From an uncultured Phycisphaeraceae bacterium (GTDB lineage Bacteria; Planctomycetota; Phycisphaerae; Phycisphaerales; UBA1924): DNA of 64,000 nt. Numbering within the stretch: position 1 is the first letter of the stretch; each line of letters starts with the position of its first letter. The position numbers and the translations under genes were made by a program. The notes below the pieces were generated by a model, which saw nothing but the letters and a program-made list of their open reading frames with translations, was not told where the DNA came from and made no database searches. The stretch lies in the NCBI GenBank assembly GCA_937899905.1, contig CALCCF010000073.1, positions 1-64,000 of the forward strand. Direction: 5' to 3'. Positions 45,881 through 52,139 of this stretch are shown here, in pieces.

Positions 45881-46672
45881 ATGAACACGAACCTCTCCGG
45901 ACGCACCGCCCTCGTCTGCGGCTCGAGCCAGGGCATCGGCCTCGCCTCAGCCATCGCGCTCACGCAGCTGGGCTGCCGCGTCACGCTCTTTGCGCGTGAT
46001 CCAGACCGCCTCGCTCAGGCCAAGAACGCCTTGGCGGAAGTCGATGACGCCCACCACGACACGGCATCCGCCGACTTCCACCAACCCGAATCCGTGCTCG
46101 GTGCCGCGAGCGCCGCGATGGAGCGCGCGGGCGGCGCCTTCGACATCCTGGTCAACAACACCGGCGGCCCACCCGGCGGGCCCATCGCCGAGGCCGATGG
46201 GCAGGCATTCCTCAAGGGCATGACGAGCCACCTCGTCAACAACCAGAACCTCGCTCGCCTCGTCCTGCCCGGAATGAAGGCCAACGCCTTCGGCCGAATC
46301 GTCAACATCACCAGCACGTCGGTGAAGTGCCCGATCCCCGGCCTTGGGGTCAGCAACACCGTTCGGGCCGCCGTCACGGCCTGGGCCAAGACGCTCGCGG
46401 GCGAGGTCGCGGCCGACGGCATCACGGTGAACAGCGTGCTCCCGGGCTTCACAGACACCGCCCGGCTGGCGAGCCTCTTCGATGCCAAGGCCACCCGACA
46501 GGGCGTGGGGGCGGACCAGGTCCGAGACGACGCCATCGCGTCCATCCCAATGGGCCGGTTGGGCACGGCCGAGGAGGTCGCCGCGGCGGTCGCCTTCTAC
46601 TGCACGCCCGCGGCCGGATACATCACCGGCACCGTTCTGGCGGTCGATGGCGGCCGGACGCCCGCGTTTTAG
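45881..46672 (+). CDS. short-chain dehydrogenase/reductase, variant active site
   Basis: A 263-residue SDR. The cofactor motif ALVCGSSQGIGLASA (TGxxxGIG style) and NNTGGPPGG (NNAG style) are clear, and the C-terminus ends TVLAVDGGRTPAF like FabG-related proteins. The catalytic region reads NITSTSVKCPIPGLGVSNTV: a serine is present, but the usual YxxxK is replaced by SNTVRAAVTAW, as in a known SDR subgroup whose members have SNTxR in its place. Whether it is an active oxidoreductase is uncertain. The ATG at 45881 begins right before the cofactor motif. Confidence 0.85.
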   Translation: MNTNLSGRTALVCGSSQGIGLASAIALTQLGCRVTLFARDPDRLAQAKNALAEVDDAHHDTASADFHQPESVLGAASAAMERAGGAFDILVNNTGGPPGGPIAEADGQAFLKGMTSHLVNNQNLARLVLPGMKANAFGRIVNITSTSVKCPIPGLGVSNTVRAAVTAWAKTLAGEVAADGITVNSVLPGFTDTARLASLFDAKATRQGVGADQVRDDAIASIPMGRLGTAEEVAAAVAFYCTPAAGYITGTVLAVDGGRTPAF

Positions 46673-46998: not shown

Positions 46999-47736
46999 GT
47001 GAGCAACGACAGGCGAGACTACAACGAGCGAGGTGAGTACCGAGGCGGCCGTGGCCGCGGCCGCGGTGGTCATGGTGGTGGCCACGGCGGTGGTCGTGGT
47101 CGAGGCCGTGGCCGCGGACGCCACGGAGGCCATGGCGGTCACCACGGTGGTGGGCACGATCGCCAGGGCATCCCGCTCAGCGCGCTCGACCCCGAGCTGA
47201 CCGACATCAGCCGCCGCGTCATCGGCTGCGCCATCGAGGTGCACAAGGCGCTCGGCCCGGGCCTTCCCATCGAGACGTACAACAAGGCCCTGCAGATCGA
47301 GATGAAGGCCGCCGACATCGATCACGTGGCCAACAAGTCGATCGACATTCGCTACCAGGACACGTTGGTCGGCGAGGTCACCGCGTCGCTCTTCGTCGAG
47401 GATCGCTTCATCGTCGACCTCGTCGCGCGCCCCGGTGACGTTGGTACCGGCGAGCGTCTGCAGACGCGCGCCAAGCTTCGCGCCCTGGAGCTGGAGCTCG
47501 GCCTCATCATCAACTTCGCCCAGCGCCGCCTCAAGGACGGCCTCGTCCGTGTGCTGAACCCCGACCAGCTCAAGGAGCTGCTCGAGGAGCGCCAGAAGGC
47601 CGAGGACCAGCACGACGAGTACGAGAGCGACGAGTACGAAGACGAGGACGATGACGAGTACGAAGACGACGAGGAAGACGAAGACGACGACGAGTACGAA
47701 GATGAAGAAGAGGAAGAGGACGACGACGATCGCTGA
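46999..47736 (+). CDS. GxxExxY-family protein with GHGG/GRG-rich head and acidic tail
   Basis: A 245-residue protein in three parts. Residues about 12-55 are an almost pure Gly/Arg/His repeat (GGRGRGRGG, GHGGGHGGG). Residues about 58-200 form the GxxExxY domain of the PD-(D/E)XK nuclease superfamily: VIGCAIEVHKALGPGLPIET, then SLFVEDRFIVDLVARPGD and LGLIINFAQRRLKDGLVRVL. The name motif is shifted (ExY rather than ExxY) and the usual ELK of the active site reads DLV, so nuclease activity is doubtful. The last 45 residues are nearly all Asp, Glu and Tyr. The GTG start has AGGAG upstream. The desulfurase gene follows after 38 bases. Confidence 0.85.
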   Translation: MSNDRRDYNERGEYRGGRGRGRGGHGGGHGGGRGRGRGRGRHGGHGGHHGGGHDRQGIPLSALDPELTDISRRVIGCAIEVHKALGPGLPIETYNKALQIEMKAADIDHVANKSIDIRYQDTLVGEVTASLFVEDRFIVDLVARPGDVGTGERLQTRAKLRALELELGLIINFAQRRLKDGLVRVLNPDQLKELLEERQKAEDQHDEYESDEYEDEDDDEYEDDEEDEDDDEYEDEEEEEDDDDR

Positions 47737-47774: not shown

Positions 47775-48947
47775 TTGAACGCCTACCTGGACAACAACGC
47801 CACCACGCAACCGCTGCCCGAAGTGGTCGCTGCTGTCAGCGAGTGCCTGGAGAATTGCTGGGCGAACCCGTCGAGCGTGCACCGTCCGGGACAGGCTTCG
47901 CGAGCGCGCATCGAGAAGGCCCGTCGTTCGGTGGCGGATCTCATCGGCGCTGGGCATCGAGAGGTGGTGTTCTGCTCGGGTGGCACCGAAAGCTGCCAGA
48001 TGGCAATCCGCGGTGCGCTGGACTGGATCCGTTCCCAGTCAGATAACGGCGAAGCACGCAACGTCCTCGTGACGAGCCCCGTCGAGCACTCAGCCGTGCG
48101 CGATCTGGCCAAGGGCATGGGCGAGTGCGGCCAGGCCGAGGTCCGCTGGCTGCCCATCGGCTGCGGCGGCATCATCGATGCCGAGGCCTCCCGTTCCCTC
48201 TTCGACGATCGCGTCGCTGTGCTCAGCGTGCAGTGGGCCAACAACGAGACGGGCGCCATCCAGCCCGCGATCGAGCTTGCACACATGGCCAAGGAAGCCG
48301 GCGCGATCGTGCACGTCGACGGCACGCAGTGGGTCGGCCGTTTGGAGACCGACGTCCGTGAGCTGCCGTTCGATCTGCTGACCTTCAGCGCCCACAAGTT
48401 CCACGGTCCGAAGGGCATTGGAGCGCTGTGGATCCGCAAGGGCGTGAAGCTCTGCAAGCAGACCCCCGGCTCGCAAGAGCTCGGCCGCCGCGGCGGCACC
48501 GAGAACGTGCCGGGCATTGTCGGCCTGGGCGAAGCGGCCAAGGGTGCCGCGTCTTGGCTGGCCGATCCGAGCAACCGGGTACGAATCGCCGAGCTGCGCG
48601 ACATGCTCGAAGCCGGCGTGCTCGAACGCGTCGAGGGCGCGTGCGTCAACGGCACGACCGATCCCGACAAGCGATTGTGGAATACGACCAACCTCGCCCT
48701 ACCGGGCGTCGACGCTGAGATCATGCTGCTCACGCTCGCCGAAATGGGCGTGTGCGTGTCGGCCGGCTCCGCGTGCAGCAGCGGCTCGCTCGAGCCCAGC
48801 CCCGTGCTCTGCGCGATGGGGCTCGATAAGGCCCAGGCTGCCGGCTCATTGCGGCTCAGCCTGTCACGGTTCTCGACGGAAGCCGAGGTCCGCTCCGCAG
48901 TCGACTCGATCGTCGAGGCCTGGCACGCCGTGACAGCCAGCGTCTGA
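47775..48947 (+). CDS. cysteine desulfurase (NifS/IscS family)
   Basis: A 390-residue PLP enzyme that takes sulfur from cysteine for Fe-S cluster or tRNA work. It starts LDNNATTQPLPEVV, with CSGGTESCQMAIRG for PLP phosphate binding, Lys208 in FSAHKFHGPKG as the PLP Schiff base and Cys334 in SAGSACSSGS as the persulfide carrier. The family's group I (NifS/IscS) signature is intact. The start is a TTG just before the conserved N-terminus. It lies 38 bases after the GxxExxY gene, so the two are likely co-transcribed. No IscU scaffold gene is near; the YggX-like protein at 61917 is the only other iron-sulfur-related gene in the window. Confidence 0.94.
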   Translation: MNAYLDNNATTQPLPEVVAAVSECLENCWANPSSVHRPGQASRARIEKARRSVADLIGAGHREVVFCSGGTESCQMAIRGALDWIRSQSDNGEARNVLVTSPVEHSAVRDLAKGMGECGQAEVRWLPIGCGGIIDAEASRSLFDDRVAVLSVQWANNETGAIQPAIELAHMAKEAGAIVHVDGTQWVGRLETDVRELPFDLLTFSAHKFHGPKGIGALWIRKGVKLCKQTPGSQELGRRGGTENVPGIVGLGEAAKGAASWLADPSNRVRIAELRDMLEAGVLERVEGACVNGTTDPDKRLWNTTNLALPGVDAEIMLLTLAEMGVCVSAGSACSSGSLEPSPVLCAMGLDKAQAAGSLRLSLSRFSTEAEVRSAVDSIVEAWHAVTASV

Positions 48948-49014: not shown

Positions 49015-49806
49015 ATGGCCGACAACCCCTATGCCCAGCCCCAGGACTTCGCCGGCGAGGCCCAGTACCTCGAGCCCAAGACGAGCATCCTGGCGATCTT
49101 CGCGTTCGTCATCTCGCTCGTAGGCCTGCTCGTCTGTTGCATCCCCGGCATCGGCCCGCTGGGCCTGCTGCTCGGCGTTGTTTCACTTGTGCTCATCAGC
49201 ACATCCGGCGGACGCAAGAAGGGCGGGGGGTTCGCGATCGCGGCGATCATCATCGGCCTTATCTCCGGTGCCATCAACATCGCGGTCGTCTACGGCATGG
49301 CCGTGGCCGGCAGGGAGTACTCCGCGCTCGGTGGTCTCGTCGAAGCGGTCGAGAACCGCGACTTGAACGAGACGCAGAGCTTCTTCATCAGCGCTGAAGC
49401 CCAGATGATCGACCAGGCAACCATCGAGGCCTGGGGTGGAGCGCTCAATGCCGACTACGGCGCGATGCAGCCGCGACCCACCGGCATGCTCGAACTCATC
49501 ATGCAGTTCGCCGACGTGGGCCAGCGGATCGAGTCGGTCCAGGCCGACGTCGAGCAGGAATACCCCTCCGGACAATTCGCGGGCCTGCCTCTCGCATTGC
49601 CGTTCGATCAAGGCTCGGTGCTCTTCATGCACATCATGCCAGCGGACGCCAACGGCATCGTCGGTAGCATCGTGAACTCCGCCTACGAGGCCCCCGACGG
49701 CTCGATCGTTTGGCTGCTCCCGCCGCCGAGCGGCCAGGGCACCGCCGCGCCCGCCGCACCGCCGGCTGGCACTCCCGACGCGGCCGATCAGTCGGGCGGA
49801 GGCTGA
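49015..49806 (+). CDS. DUF4190-like membrane protein upstream of the MlaF-type ATPase
   Basis: A 263-residue protein. Residues about 25-105 carry two or three spans (SILAIFAFVISLVGLLVCCI, LGLLLGVVSLVLIS, GFAIAAIIIGLISGAINIAV) with a Gly/Lys-rich turn, the DUF4190 layout. The remaining 150 residues form a soluble domain with no motif I can name, and the C-terminus is Ala/Pro-rich. Only three bases separate its stop from the ATPase start, so it is part of the Mla-like unit and may stand where MlaE would be expected. It does not resemble MlaE in sequence. The first ATG is used. Confidence 0.7.
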   Translation: MADNPYAQPQDFAGEAQYLEPKTSILAIFAFVISLVGLLVCCIPGIGPLGLLLGVVSLVLISTSGGRKKGGGFAIAAIIIGLISGAINIAVVYGMAVAGREYSALGGLVEAVENRDLNETQSFFISAEAQMIDQATIEAWGGALNADYGAMQPRPTGMLELIMQFADVGQRIESVQADVEQEYPSGQFAGLPLALPFDQGSVLFMHIMPADANGIVGSIVNSAYEAPDGSIVWLLPPPSGQGTAAPAAPPAGTPDAADQSGGG

Positions 49807-49809
49807 GCC

Positions 49810-50766
49810 GTGCCGACTCGCGCCGACGAGCCCACGCCCGTCGTCAGCGTGCGAGGCCTGCGCAAGAGCTTCGACGGACGCGAGATCCTGCAGGGCATCG
49901 ACCTCGACGTCATGCCCGGCGAGACCATGGTCATCATGGGAGGCTCAGGCTCGGGCAAGAGCACGCTCCTGCGCCTCATGATCGGCTCGATCAAGAGCGA
50001 CCAAGGCTCCATCAGGATGTTCGGCCAAAACATCTGCGGCATGGAAGAGGACGACCTCAACAAGATCCGGCTCAAGTTCGGCATCCTCTTCCAGAGCGGC
50101 GCCCTCTTCAACAGCATGACCGTGGCCGAGAACGTCGCGCTGCTGCTGCAGGAGCACACGCGCCTCAGCCAAGAGATCATCGACATCCAGGTCAAGATCA
50201 AGCTCGAGCAGGTCCAGCTGCGCAACGCGGCCGACCTGTTCCCCGCGCAGATCTCCGGCGGCATGAAGAAGCGTGCCGGCCTGGCCCGCGCTATGGCCCT
50301 CGACCCCCAGCTGCTGTTCTGCGACGAGCCCAGCGCGGGCCTCGACCCGGTCACCAGCGCCCAGATCGATCGCCTCCTGCTCGACCTCACCAAGAAGCTC
50401 GGCATCGCGAACGTCGTCGTTACCCACGAGATGGACTCGGCCTTCACCATCGCCGACCGCATGGCCATGCTCGACAAGGGACGCATGCTTGCGGTGCAGC
50501 CGAAAGCGTGGTTCGAGCGGATCCGGGACGTCCCGGACGATGAGCTCCCGTCCCTGTCCGAGGACGAGCAACTCATCCGCCAGTTCCTGCGCGGCGCCGC
50601 CGAGGGCCCCCTGAGCGAGCGCATGAGCGAGAGCGACTGGGAACAGGACATCCTCGGCGCGCGCCGTAGCGTGCCGGGCATGAGGAGCGTCGAGCCCTCG
50701 CGTATCGTTCCACAGACCGAAGACGAAGGCCTGCTGCAAAGGCTCCGCCGCATGCTCCAGGCCTGA
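49810..50766 (+). CDS. MlaF-like ABC ATPase
   Basis: A 318-residue ATPase of the Mla/Mkl class that drives lipid transport between membranes. Walker A GGSGSGKST (Lys50), the Q-loop LFQSGALFNSMTVAENVA, signature ISGGMKKRAG, Walker B LLFCDEP and VVTHEMDSA are all intact. The GALFxSMTVxENV pattern is specific to MlaF. The C-terminal 70 residues are charged and unique. GTG start, three bases after the DUF4190-like gene; the MlaD-like gene follows after 62 bases. Confidence 0.92.
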   Translation: MPTRADEPTPVVSVRGLRKSFDGREILQGIDLDVMPGETMVIMGGSGSGKSTLLRLMIGSIKSDQGSIRMFGQNICGMEEDDLNKIRLKFGILFQSGALFNSMTVAENVALLLQEHTRLSQEIIDIQVKIKLEQVQLRNAADLFPAQISGGMKKRAGLARAMALDPQLLFCDEPSAGLDPVTSAQIDRLLLDLTKKLGIANVVVTHEMDSAFTIADRMAMLDKGRMLAVQPKAWFERIRDVPDDELPSLSEDEQLIRQFLRGAAEGPLSERMSESDWEQDILGARRSVPGMRSVEPSRIVPQTEDEGLLQRLRRMLQA

Positions 50767-50828
50767 TACCCCGATCCCCCGAGGCGTACCAACACCGGAA
50801 TCGCCTCCAAGAAAGGAACCCAGACACC

Positions 50829-52139
50829 ATGCCGGCGCCCGGTGGACGAAACGCGATCGTTGGTGCGTTTTTTATCTCGGCGGTGGCGCTCACCGTGGTT
50901 GTCGCGGCGATCCTGAGCGATCTCGGCGCCGCGCTGACGCCGACCACGCGGTATGTGGTCCGGTTCCAACTGTTCGACAACGCCGGCATGCTGGCGCCCG
51001 GTGCCGAGGTCCGCGTTGGTGGCATCCGTGTTGGGAGCGTCGAGCGTCTCGAACTCGCCGACGACGGCCAGTCGGATGCCGTCGACGTCATCATCGAGGT
51101 CGACGAAGACCTCGTGCTGCGACGCGACGCGATCGCCCGACTCGAGATCCCGCTGCTTGGCACCGGAACGGTGGTGAACTTCATCAGCACCGGGCAAGGC
51201 GAGCCCCTGTCCGAAGACGGCCGCCTCGTCGGATTGCCGTCACCGGGCCTCCTCGCGCAGACCGGGCTGAGCGACGAAGACCTCGAGAACATCCAGCGAT
51301 CGATCACGGCGCTCGCCGACTCCAGCGAACGCATCGGCCGCATCATCCAGGAGGTCGAGCCCAACGTCAGCGAGGCCGTCAATGGGCTCAACTCGACCAT
51401 CGACGACGCCCGGGCCATCGCCGAGGACCTACGCGGCCGCATGCCCCGCATCGGCGACGAGGTCGAGGGCGCGCTCGCCGACGTGCGCGAGAGCGTCGAG
51501 GTCTGGACCGGCCTGGCCGAACGCCTCGACGAGCGCACGGTCGAGCTGGCCGCCGTCATCGAGAGCGCCCGATCGACCATCGACGAAAACCGCCCCAACC
51601 TCGATCGCGTGATTGCCGACCTCGCGGACATCACCAGCCGGACCAGCGAAGAGATCATGCCCTCGGCCATCGAGACCGTAGAGAACGCGCGGCTTGCGTC
51701 GGCCGATGCCGCGGAACTCGCCGCCGACACCCGTGCGCTTCTCGATGCCGAGACCCCCGGCGTGCGTCGCGCGATGGCGAATCTCAGGCTCGCCACCGAC
51801 CAGGCCAAGCTCACCATGCTCGAGGTTCGCCGGAGCCCGTGGCGCCTGCTCCAGCGTCCGAGCACGCGCGAACTCGAAGGCGAGCTGATCTACGACTCCA
51901 CCCGCGCCTTCGCTCAGGCGGCAAGCGATCTGCGTGTCGCCAGCGAGAGCCTCATCGCGCTGAGCACCGACGAGGAGGGTCCCGTCGACGCGGCCAGCCG
52001 CCAACGCGCCATCGAGCGCCTGCACGAAGAACTCACGAACAGCTTCGCGCGATACCGCACGGCCGAGCAGAACCTGCTCGACCGCGCGCTGCGGCTGGGT
52101 ACCGGTGACGTCGCCGGACCGGATGGGACGGCGCCCTAA
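50829..52139 (+). CDS. MlaD-like MCE protein
   Basis: A 436-residue substrate-binding protein. A single N-terminal span (AIVGAFFISAVALTVVVAAI) anchors an MCE domain (about 38-130: YVVRFQLFDNAGMLAPGAEV, RVGGIRVGSVERLEL, LGTGTVVNFISTGQGEPL), followed by a long helical region (about 140-420) with heptad repeats, like the extended helices of MCE needles. It would bind lipid in the space outside the inner membrane. The MCE core and helical extension fit single-domain MlaD-type proteins of double-membrane bacteria. AAGGAA precedes the ATG. It converges with the haem peroxidase gene, 21 bases between stops. Confidence 0.9.
   Translation: MPAPGGRNAIVGAFFISAVALTVVVAAILSDLGAALTPTTRYVVRFQLFDNAGMLAPGAEVRVGGIRVGSVERLELADDGQSDAVDVIIEVDEDLVLRRDAIARLEIPLLGTGTVVNFISTGQGEPLSEDGRLVGLPSPGLLAQTGLSDEDLENIQRSITALADSSERIGRIIQEVEPNVSEAVNGLNSTIDDARAIAEDLRGRMPRIGDEVEGALADVRESVEVWTGLAERLDERTVELAAVIESARSTIDENRPNLDRVIADLADITSRTSEEIMPSAIETVENARLASADAAELAADTRALLDAETPGVRRAMANLRLATDQAKLTMLEVRRSPWRLLQRPSTRELEGELIYDSTRAFAQAASDLRVASESLIALSTDEEGPVDAASRQRAIERLHEELTNSFARYRTAEQNLLDRALRLGTGDVAGPDGTAP

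Follow-up and report, generated by a model that had tools for sequence, protein, structure and literature searches.

The 64,000-nucleotide stretch of DNA analysed here (the window) carries a gene whose product joins a nuclease-like domain to two low-complexity arms of opposite charge. This raises the question of whether the protein is still a nuclease and, if not, what role it could play in the bacteria that keep it. The features on which the analysis draws are the following:

46999..47736, + strand: pseudo-nuclease gene, a GxxExxY/PDDEXK_3 descendant with two arms (open reading frame, PF13366 and TIGR04256 scores, alignment)
46999..47172, + strand: head, residues 1-58, rich in Gly, Arg and His, predicted to be disordered (pLDDT below 50 for residues 1-54)
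47173..47565, + strand: core with predicted PD-(D/E)XK fold, about residues 59-189
47416..47424, + strand: codons of Asp140-Leu141-Val142, where the catalytic E-L-K is expected (alignment)
47566..47733, + strand: C-terminal helix (predicted to about residue 209), followed by the acidic tail
45881..46672, + strand: short-chain dehydrogenase/reductase, an upstream neighbour only
47775..48947, + strand: cysteine desulfurase of the NifS/IscS type, a neighbour in the seven loci of the genus and outside the unit shared by the family

Family assignment and active site

The open reading frame starts with GTG at 46999, ends with its stop codon at 47736 and encodes 245 amino acids; four relatives from the same genus (L003, L005, L006 and L007) have ATG at the same start position. 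The window protein exceeded the curated cut-offs of both PF13366 (74.5 bits; cut-off 22) and the GxxExxY model TIGR04256 (76.9 bits; cut-off 35), which bears out the preliminary description of its central domain as a member of the GxxExxY family. PF13366 was matched by 68/68 orthologs at E ≤ 0.001, and no further PF13366 match was found in the window's genome. As judged from these scores, the pseudo-nuclease is a descendant of the GxxExxY/PDDEXK_3 family which, in the window, is without the name-giving Glu.

Catalytic residues were compared between 85 distinct orthologs, left after removal of duplicate cores, and 20 canonical paralogs from the same order, with the canonical L234 left out of the alignment. 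The E-x-K pair was present in 20/20 canonical paralogs and in 0/85 orthologs, and a D-x-K pair was also absent from all 85. Taken singly, the Glu of ELK was found in 25/85 orthologs and its Lys in 1/85, a protein with Asn at the Glu position (20/20 canonical proteins for either residue). The Asp of the RxD motif remained in 68/85 (20/20 canonical), the Glu of ExxY was in place in 17/85 (19/20 canonical) and absent in the window, and the Gln of the next motif was seen in 11/85 (19/20 canonical). Gly and Tyr of G-x-x-E-x-x-Y were kept by 85/85 orthologs. In the window protein, Ser occupies the Asp position, Asp the Glu position and Val the Lys position, and ELK accordingly reads D140-L141-V142, as had been noticed earlier; the shift of ExxY was also confirmed: in G-L-P-I-E-T-Y, Ile91 takes the canonical position and the Glu comes one residue later.

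Seven fold positions were invariant across all 105 aligned proteins (85 orthologs and 20 canonical). The catalytic motifs and adjacent positions are where residues conserved in the canonical proteins have been lost from the orthologs: E91, E140, L141, K142, A154, Q155 and Y159 (numbered as in the window protein). New invariants of the family include R153, R157 and R176. By this residue comparison, the nuclease active site is gone in every ortholog compared. The preliminary description had called the protein a pseudo-nuclease and had named an alignment of orthologs as the check on this; since the orthologs lack an intact catalytic set and possess the arms, the claim stands.

In a tree of 50 of the 85 orthologs and the 20 canonical proteins, built on 136 columns only, the orthologs formed one clade with support 100/100. 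Over 21 pairs within the window's genus pN/pS was 0.06-0.28, which indicates that the protein is maintained by purifying selection. Alignment A2 comprised the window protein and 67 of 79 usable loci with starts chosen by rule; the starts of L032 and L106 were shifted by hand, and L051 was left out because of a wrong frame.

Charged arms and predicted structure

Gene calling gave 55 genes in the window, and among these the pseudo-nuclease had both the richest Gly/Arg/His 45-mer (93%, against 42% for the runner-up) and the richest Asp/Glu 45-mer (80%, against 44%), so that the two arms of the preliminary description are real and extreme. Of 737 other genes around relatives, 12 reached 60% Gly/Arg/His, two reached 60% acidic residues and none reached both. 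The six further genomes of the genus carry both arms as well, which excludes an assembly error.

Across 68 orthologs the tail was net negative without exception (68/68; median -10.5, window -36). The head was net positive in 64/68, with a charge of zero or below in the other four, and was more variable: its median length was about 40 residues, with 20 residues or fewer in 15/68, and at least 20% Gly was found in 42/68. The RGG/RG tract is strong in the window, and at least three RG/GR pairs occurred in 48/68 orthologs. The tail, always acidic, is thus the arm that all these orthologs share, whereas the head varies and its long RGG-like form is an elaboration. The domain itself is near neutral to acidic (median net charge about -2, range -13 to +3 in the 68 orthologs). 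Given this charge and the short heads, RNA binding via an RGG head seems unlikely as a family-wide function.

AlphaFold2, run with the window protein and 67 orthologs, predicted a confident core (block means 91-98, residues 61-190) between arms of low confidence. Together with the charge counts this agrees with the earlier reading of the arms as disordered and oppositely charged. The predicted core runs helix, helix, three strands, helix, strand, and on this model it has the PD-(D/E)XK fold. Lambda exonuclease, Cas4 and other PD-(D/E)XK enzymes were the leading structural neighbours. The best match, SSO0001, which we take to be a Cas4-type protein, gave Z 9.2 and an rmsd of 4.3 Å over 101 residues, a modest match by the tool's own warning; a viral PD-(D/E)XK nuclease, itself a predicted model, matched at E 8.1e-8. 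Foldseek against the PDB returned no match at E ≤ 0.001, its leading rows nonetheless being PD-(D/E)XK enzymes, and a PDB sequence search with the domain gave chance matches only. Structural matches with Z near 7 included mitoribosomal proteins, a level that may mean only a common arrangement.

Ketosynthase neighbourhood

Gene neighbourhoods were studied in 81 loci, namely the window and the best 80 of 126 confirmed matches, a set that is uneven by genus. Clustering of the open reading frames around them revealed ketosynthase (KS) genes on both sides. The home-made gene caller chose a wrong-strand frame in some loci, and KS counts were therefore taken from tblastn. By this count the co-directional order KS1 - pseudo-nuclease - KS2 was present in 64/81 loci. 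One KS was found in 11/81 (KS1 only in five, KS2 only in four, KS2 with a contig end upstream in two), and neither adjoined the gene in 6/81: the window, L032 and L033, all from the window's genus, and L072, L089 and L093. Spacing was close, with a median of 86.5 bp from the KS1 stop to the chosen start of the pseudo-nuclease gene and of 27 bp between its stop and the point where the KS2 alignment begins. Long open reading frames that fuse the pseudo-nuclease region to KS2 (L071, L075) were taken as other reading frames.

The two ketosynthases differ in their catalytic residues. KS1 had lost the catalytic Cys in 69/69 proteins (Glu in 62, Asp in four, Gln, His and a gap in one each) as well as the second catalytic His in 69/69, and kept the first His in 15/69. 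KS2 had kept the Cys in 69/69 and both His in 67/69, with gaps in the remaining two. Judged by these residues, KS1 is a catalytically dead ketosynthase and KS2 an intact one. The new point is thus one of genomic context: in most loci of the family, the pseudo-nuclease gene lies between a dead KS1 and a live KS2.

Genes flanking the trio were far less constant than the trio itself, the most frequent ones being called in 26 and 24 of the 81 loci, and no conserved carrier-protein cluster was seen near it in these loci at a floor of 60 amino acids. In two genomes a third ketosynthase gene was found beside an acyl-carrier-protein-like gene, the carrier protein being recognised by eye; in the two genomes examined this ketosynthase is likely the housekeeping FabF. 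KS1 (e.g. L034:6590-7927 and its orthologs) and the intact KS2 form an order-wide pair distinct from the ketosynthase next to the carrier protein.

Distribution and origin of the arrangement

A profile search found clear orthologs of the pseudo-nuclease (E ≤ 1.2e-60) in 152/163 genomes of the window's family and in 112/112 family genomes that are at least 90% complete; a search with the single protein at E 0.001 gave a match in 158/163. At the level of the order (201 genomes), 68 family genomes scored 206-319 bits and the 47 matching genomes of other families at most 125 bits. In a search of 294 genomes of the phylum, which included seven of the family, matches in all other genomes stayed at or below 114 bits. 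Named records that matched were mostly Phycisphaerales or Planctomycetota metagenome bins, and a bin labelled Cyanobacteria and another labelled Isosphaera are probably mislabelled. One genome, G151, had two clear matches. The family may correspond to SM1A02 of GTDB (PMC11266412).

All 11 of the 163 family genomes without a clear ortholog were less than 90% complete. Six of them (G036, G043, G058, G086, G114 and G124) gave only weaker matches, at E 6e-31 to 2e-16, perhaps to paralogs or fragments, and in the other five (G118, G121, G130, G137 and G152) the profile search gave no match at all. In three of these five, KS1 is cut off at a contig end; in G118 no match to KS1 exceeded 95 bits, and in G152 KS1 occurs without the pseudo-nuclease gene and without a KS2 match above 218 bits. 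No clean loss was seen among the 163 family genomes. We conclude that the pseudo-nuclease descends from a GxxExxY gene of the PD-(D/E)XK fold and has been kept by vertical inheritance.

KS1 itself is found throughout the order, with a best match of E ≤ 2.1e-62 in 120/121 genomes and of only 3.7e-39 in G176; this count rests on match score, the Cys change having been scored only in the set of 69 proteins. In 12 loci from other families, picked from pairs already seen adjacent and partly for large gaps, KS1 precedes KS2, and no GxxExxY gene was called in the interval. Other genes lie between the two in three of the 12. In a thirteenth such locus (G188) KS1 and KS2 are about 7 kb apart. A GxxExxY gene considered for the KS1-KS2 gap of G230 was rejected, as the gene lies on contig C16 and the pair on C17. 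One of the intervening genes, in G166 from another family, encodes a four-helix-bundle protein (TIGR02436, 110.9 bits; L204:2767-3135, - strand). It is a separate insertion, and it indicates from one genome that the junction can take in unrelated genes. Because the pair is adjacent without the gene in the loci of other families, it is probably the older element. The ancestor of the family probably acquired a GxxExxY gene within it and domesticated this gene as a non-enzyme. The order of events would be insertion between KS1 and KS2, loss of catalysis, gain of arms and then dispersal in the window's genus.

Dispersal in the window's genus and the cysteine desulfurase

In the window's genus the pseudo-nuclease, KS1 and KS2 are dispersed and all three are kept. 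Four genomes of the genus have KS1 near TetR-, yidD- or rnpA-like genes (named by eye) and KS2 elsewhere; such genes also lie near the trio in many relatives. In two genomes KS2 stands beside a shared block that looks phage-structural by eye (L210:2800-7883 and L211:8964-14259).

Here the pseudo-nuclease gene adjoins a desulfurase block. The preliminary description had paired it with a cysteine desulfurase. The neighbour at 47775-48947 is indeed of the NifS/IscS type, and it is adjacent and co-directional in the seven loci of the genus; the pairing did not extend to the rest of the 81 loci, where the two genes are not adjacent. In 11 other loci the desulfurase cluster was called on the opposite strand some kilobases off, eight of them with the whole four-gene block, and the pairing within the genus therefore looks like a product of rearrangement. 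In the window, the desulfurase is followed (49015-52139) by an unnamed protein, an MlaF-like ATPase and an MCE protein, and these four genes form a unit, on the opposite strand, in eight relatives.

Possible role of the pseudo-nuclease

Our best explanation, put forward tentatively, is that a domesticated pseudo-nuclease from the KS1-KS2 operon serves as an accessory or regulatory partner of KS1 and KS2. It would be a non-catalytic binding protein that uses its folded core to dock on the surface of a protein (or nucleic acid) and its charged arms for electrostatic contacts, for example between the acidic tail and the basic carrier-protein dock that ketosynthases carry. Gene order, the short distances between the genes and a tail that is acidic throughout lead us to rank this role slightly above independent nucleic-acid binding. 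It is weakened by the loci that have retained the gene with no adjacent KS, namely those of the window's genus, L072, L089 and L093, by nine further loci in which one of the two KS genes is lacking, by the first catalytic His that KS1 still has in 15/69, and by other families, where the KS pair occurs without the gene. The KS1-gene-KS2 order could also persist by inertia inside an old operon.

It is conceivable, if somewhat doubtful, that the protein acts independently of the ketosynthases, with RNA or DNA bound by the dead groove together with the RGG-like head and with the tail tuning this binding or driving phase separation. The predicted PD-(D/E)XK fold, the family-invariant R153, R157 and R176, the many Gly-rich heads and the retention of the gene where KS neighbours are gone are consistent with such a function, whereas the near-neutral to acidic domain, the heads that are short (15/68) or not positively charged (4/68) and the gene order, which points to the ketosynthases, argue against it.

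An assembly of one live and two dead enzymes, in which KS1, the dead nuclease as third subunit and the live KS2 would combine and the tail would mimic a carrier protein to gate the live site, is a more specific and an unlikely form of the ketosynthase partnership. A functional pair with the cysteine desulfurase at the level of the genus is quite improbable, as the adjacent, co-directional genes of the seven genus loci are separated elsewhere and look rearranged. Still less probable is a nuclease whose catalytic residues have migrated within the fold: such migration is known in the PD-(D/E)XK superfamily and the RxD Asp is widely retained, but the window has Ser, Asp and Val at the three catalytic positions and neither an E-x-K nor a D-x-K pair occurs in the 85 orthologs. 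A functionless hitchhiker of the operon, for which the four-helix-bundle gene at the KS1-KS2 junction of one genome speaks, is the least probable reading in view of the low pN/pS, the invariant fold residues and the retention of the gene after leaving the operon.

Relation to known systems and implications

The pseudo-nuclease shares the curated score, the fold and the invariant fold residues with GxxExxY proteins (TIGR04256; PF13366, PDDEXK_3). It differs from them in that it has lost the catalytic D/E-x-K set and the Gln and has gained an acidic tail and a mostly basic head; moreover, it is a core gene of a whole family, whereas GxxExxY genes are scattered. The accessible literature on GxxExxY and PDDEXK_3/PF13366 yielded no functional work and mentioned GxxExxY in passing. 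In the accessible text of one study, RAP domains are described as a nuclease-like fold tied to RNA binding rather than cutting (PMC8190603). The pseudo-nuclease resembles these and other non-catalytic PD-(D/E)XK-like modules in fold; the mitoribosomal matches, at a Z of about 7, are too low to tell homology from a shared arrangement.

By its residues KS1 resembles the chain-length-factor half of a KS/chain-length-factor pair, such as those of type II polyketide and aryl polyene systems, in which a Cys-less protein likewise accompanies an intact ketosynthase. Chain-length factors usually carry Gln at the position of the catalytic Cys, whereas KS1 has Glu or Asp; in addition, a third gene lies between the KS genes, and no conserved carrier-protein cluster was seen near the trio. 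In the available part of the source, two FabF paralogs of Rhodopirellula baltica, RB3714 and RB4527, are described in which the active-site Cys163 is changed to Asp or Glu (PMC2649909). These dead paralogs resemble KS1 in the Cys change, and the same part of that source mentions no GxxExxY gene.

Across 74 genera of one family, a small nuclease-fold gene that was most likely inserted into a metabolic operon has lost catalysis, gained arms and become part of the core. It provides a uniform sequence set for testing the function of a domesticated pseudo-nuclease, and it points to a second ketosynthase pair, present throughout the order, in which one partner is dead.
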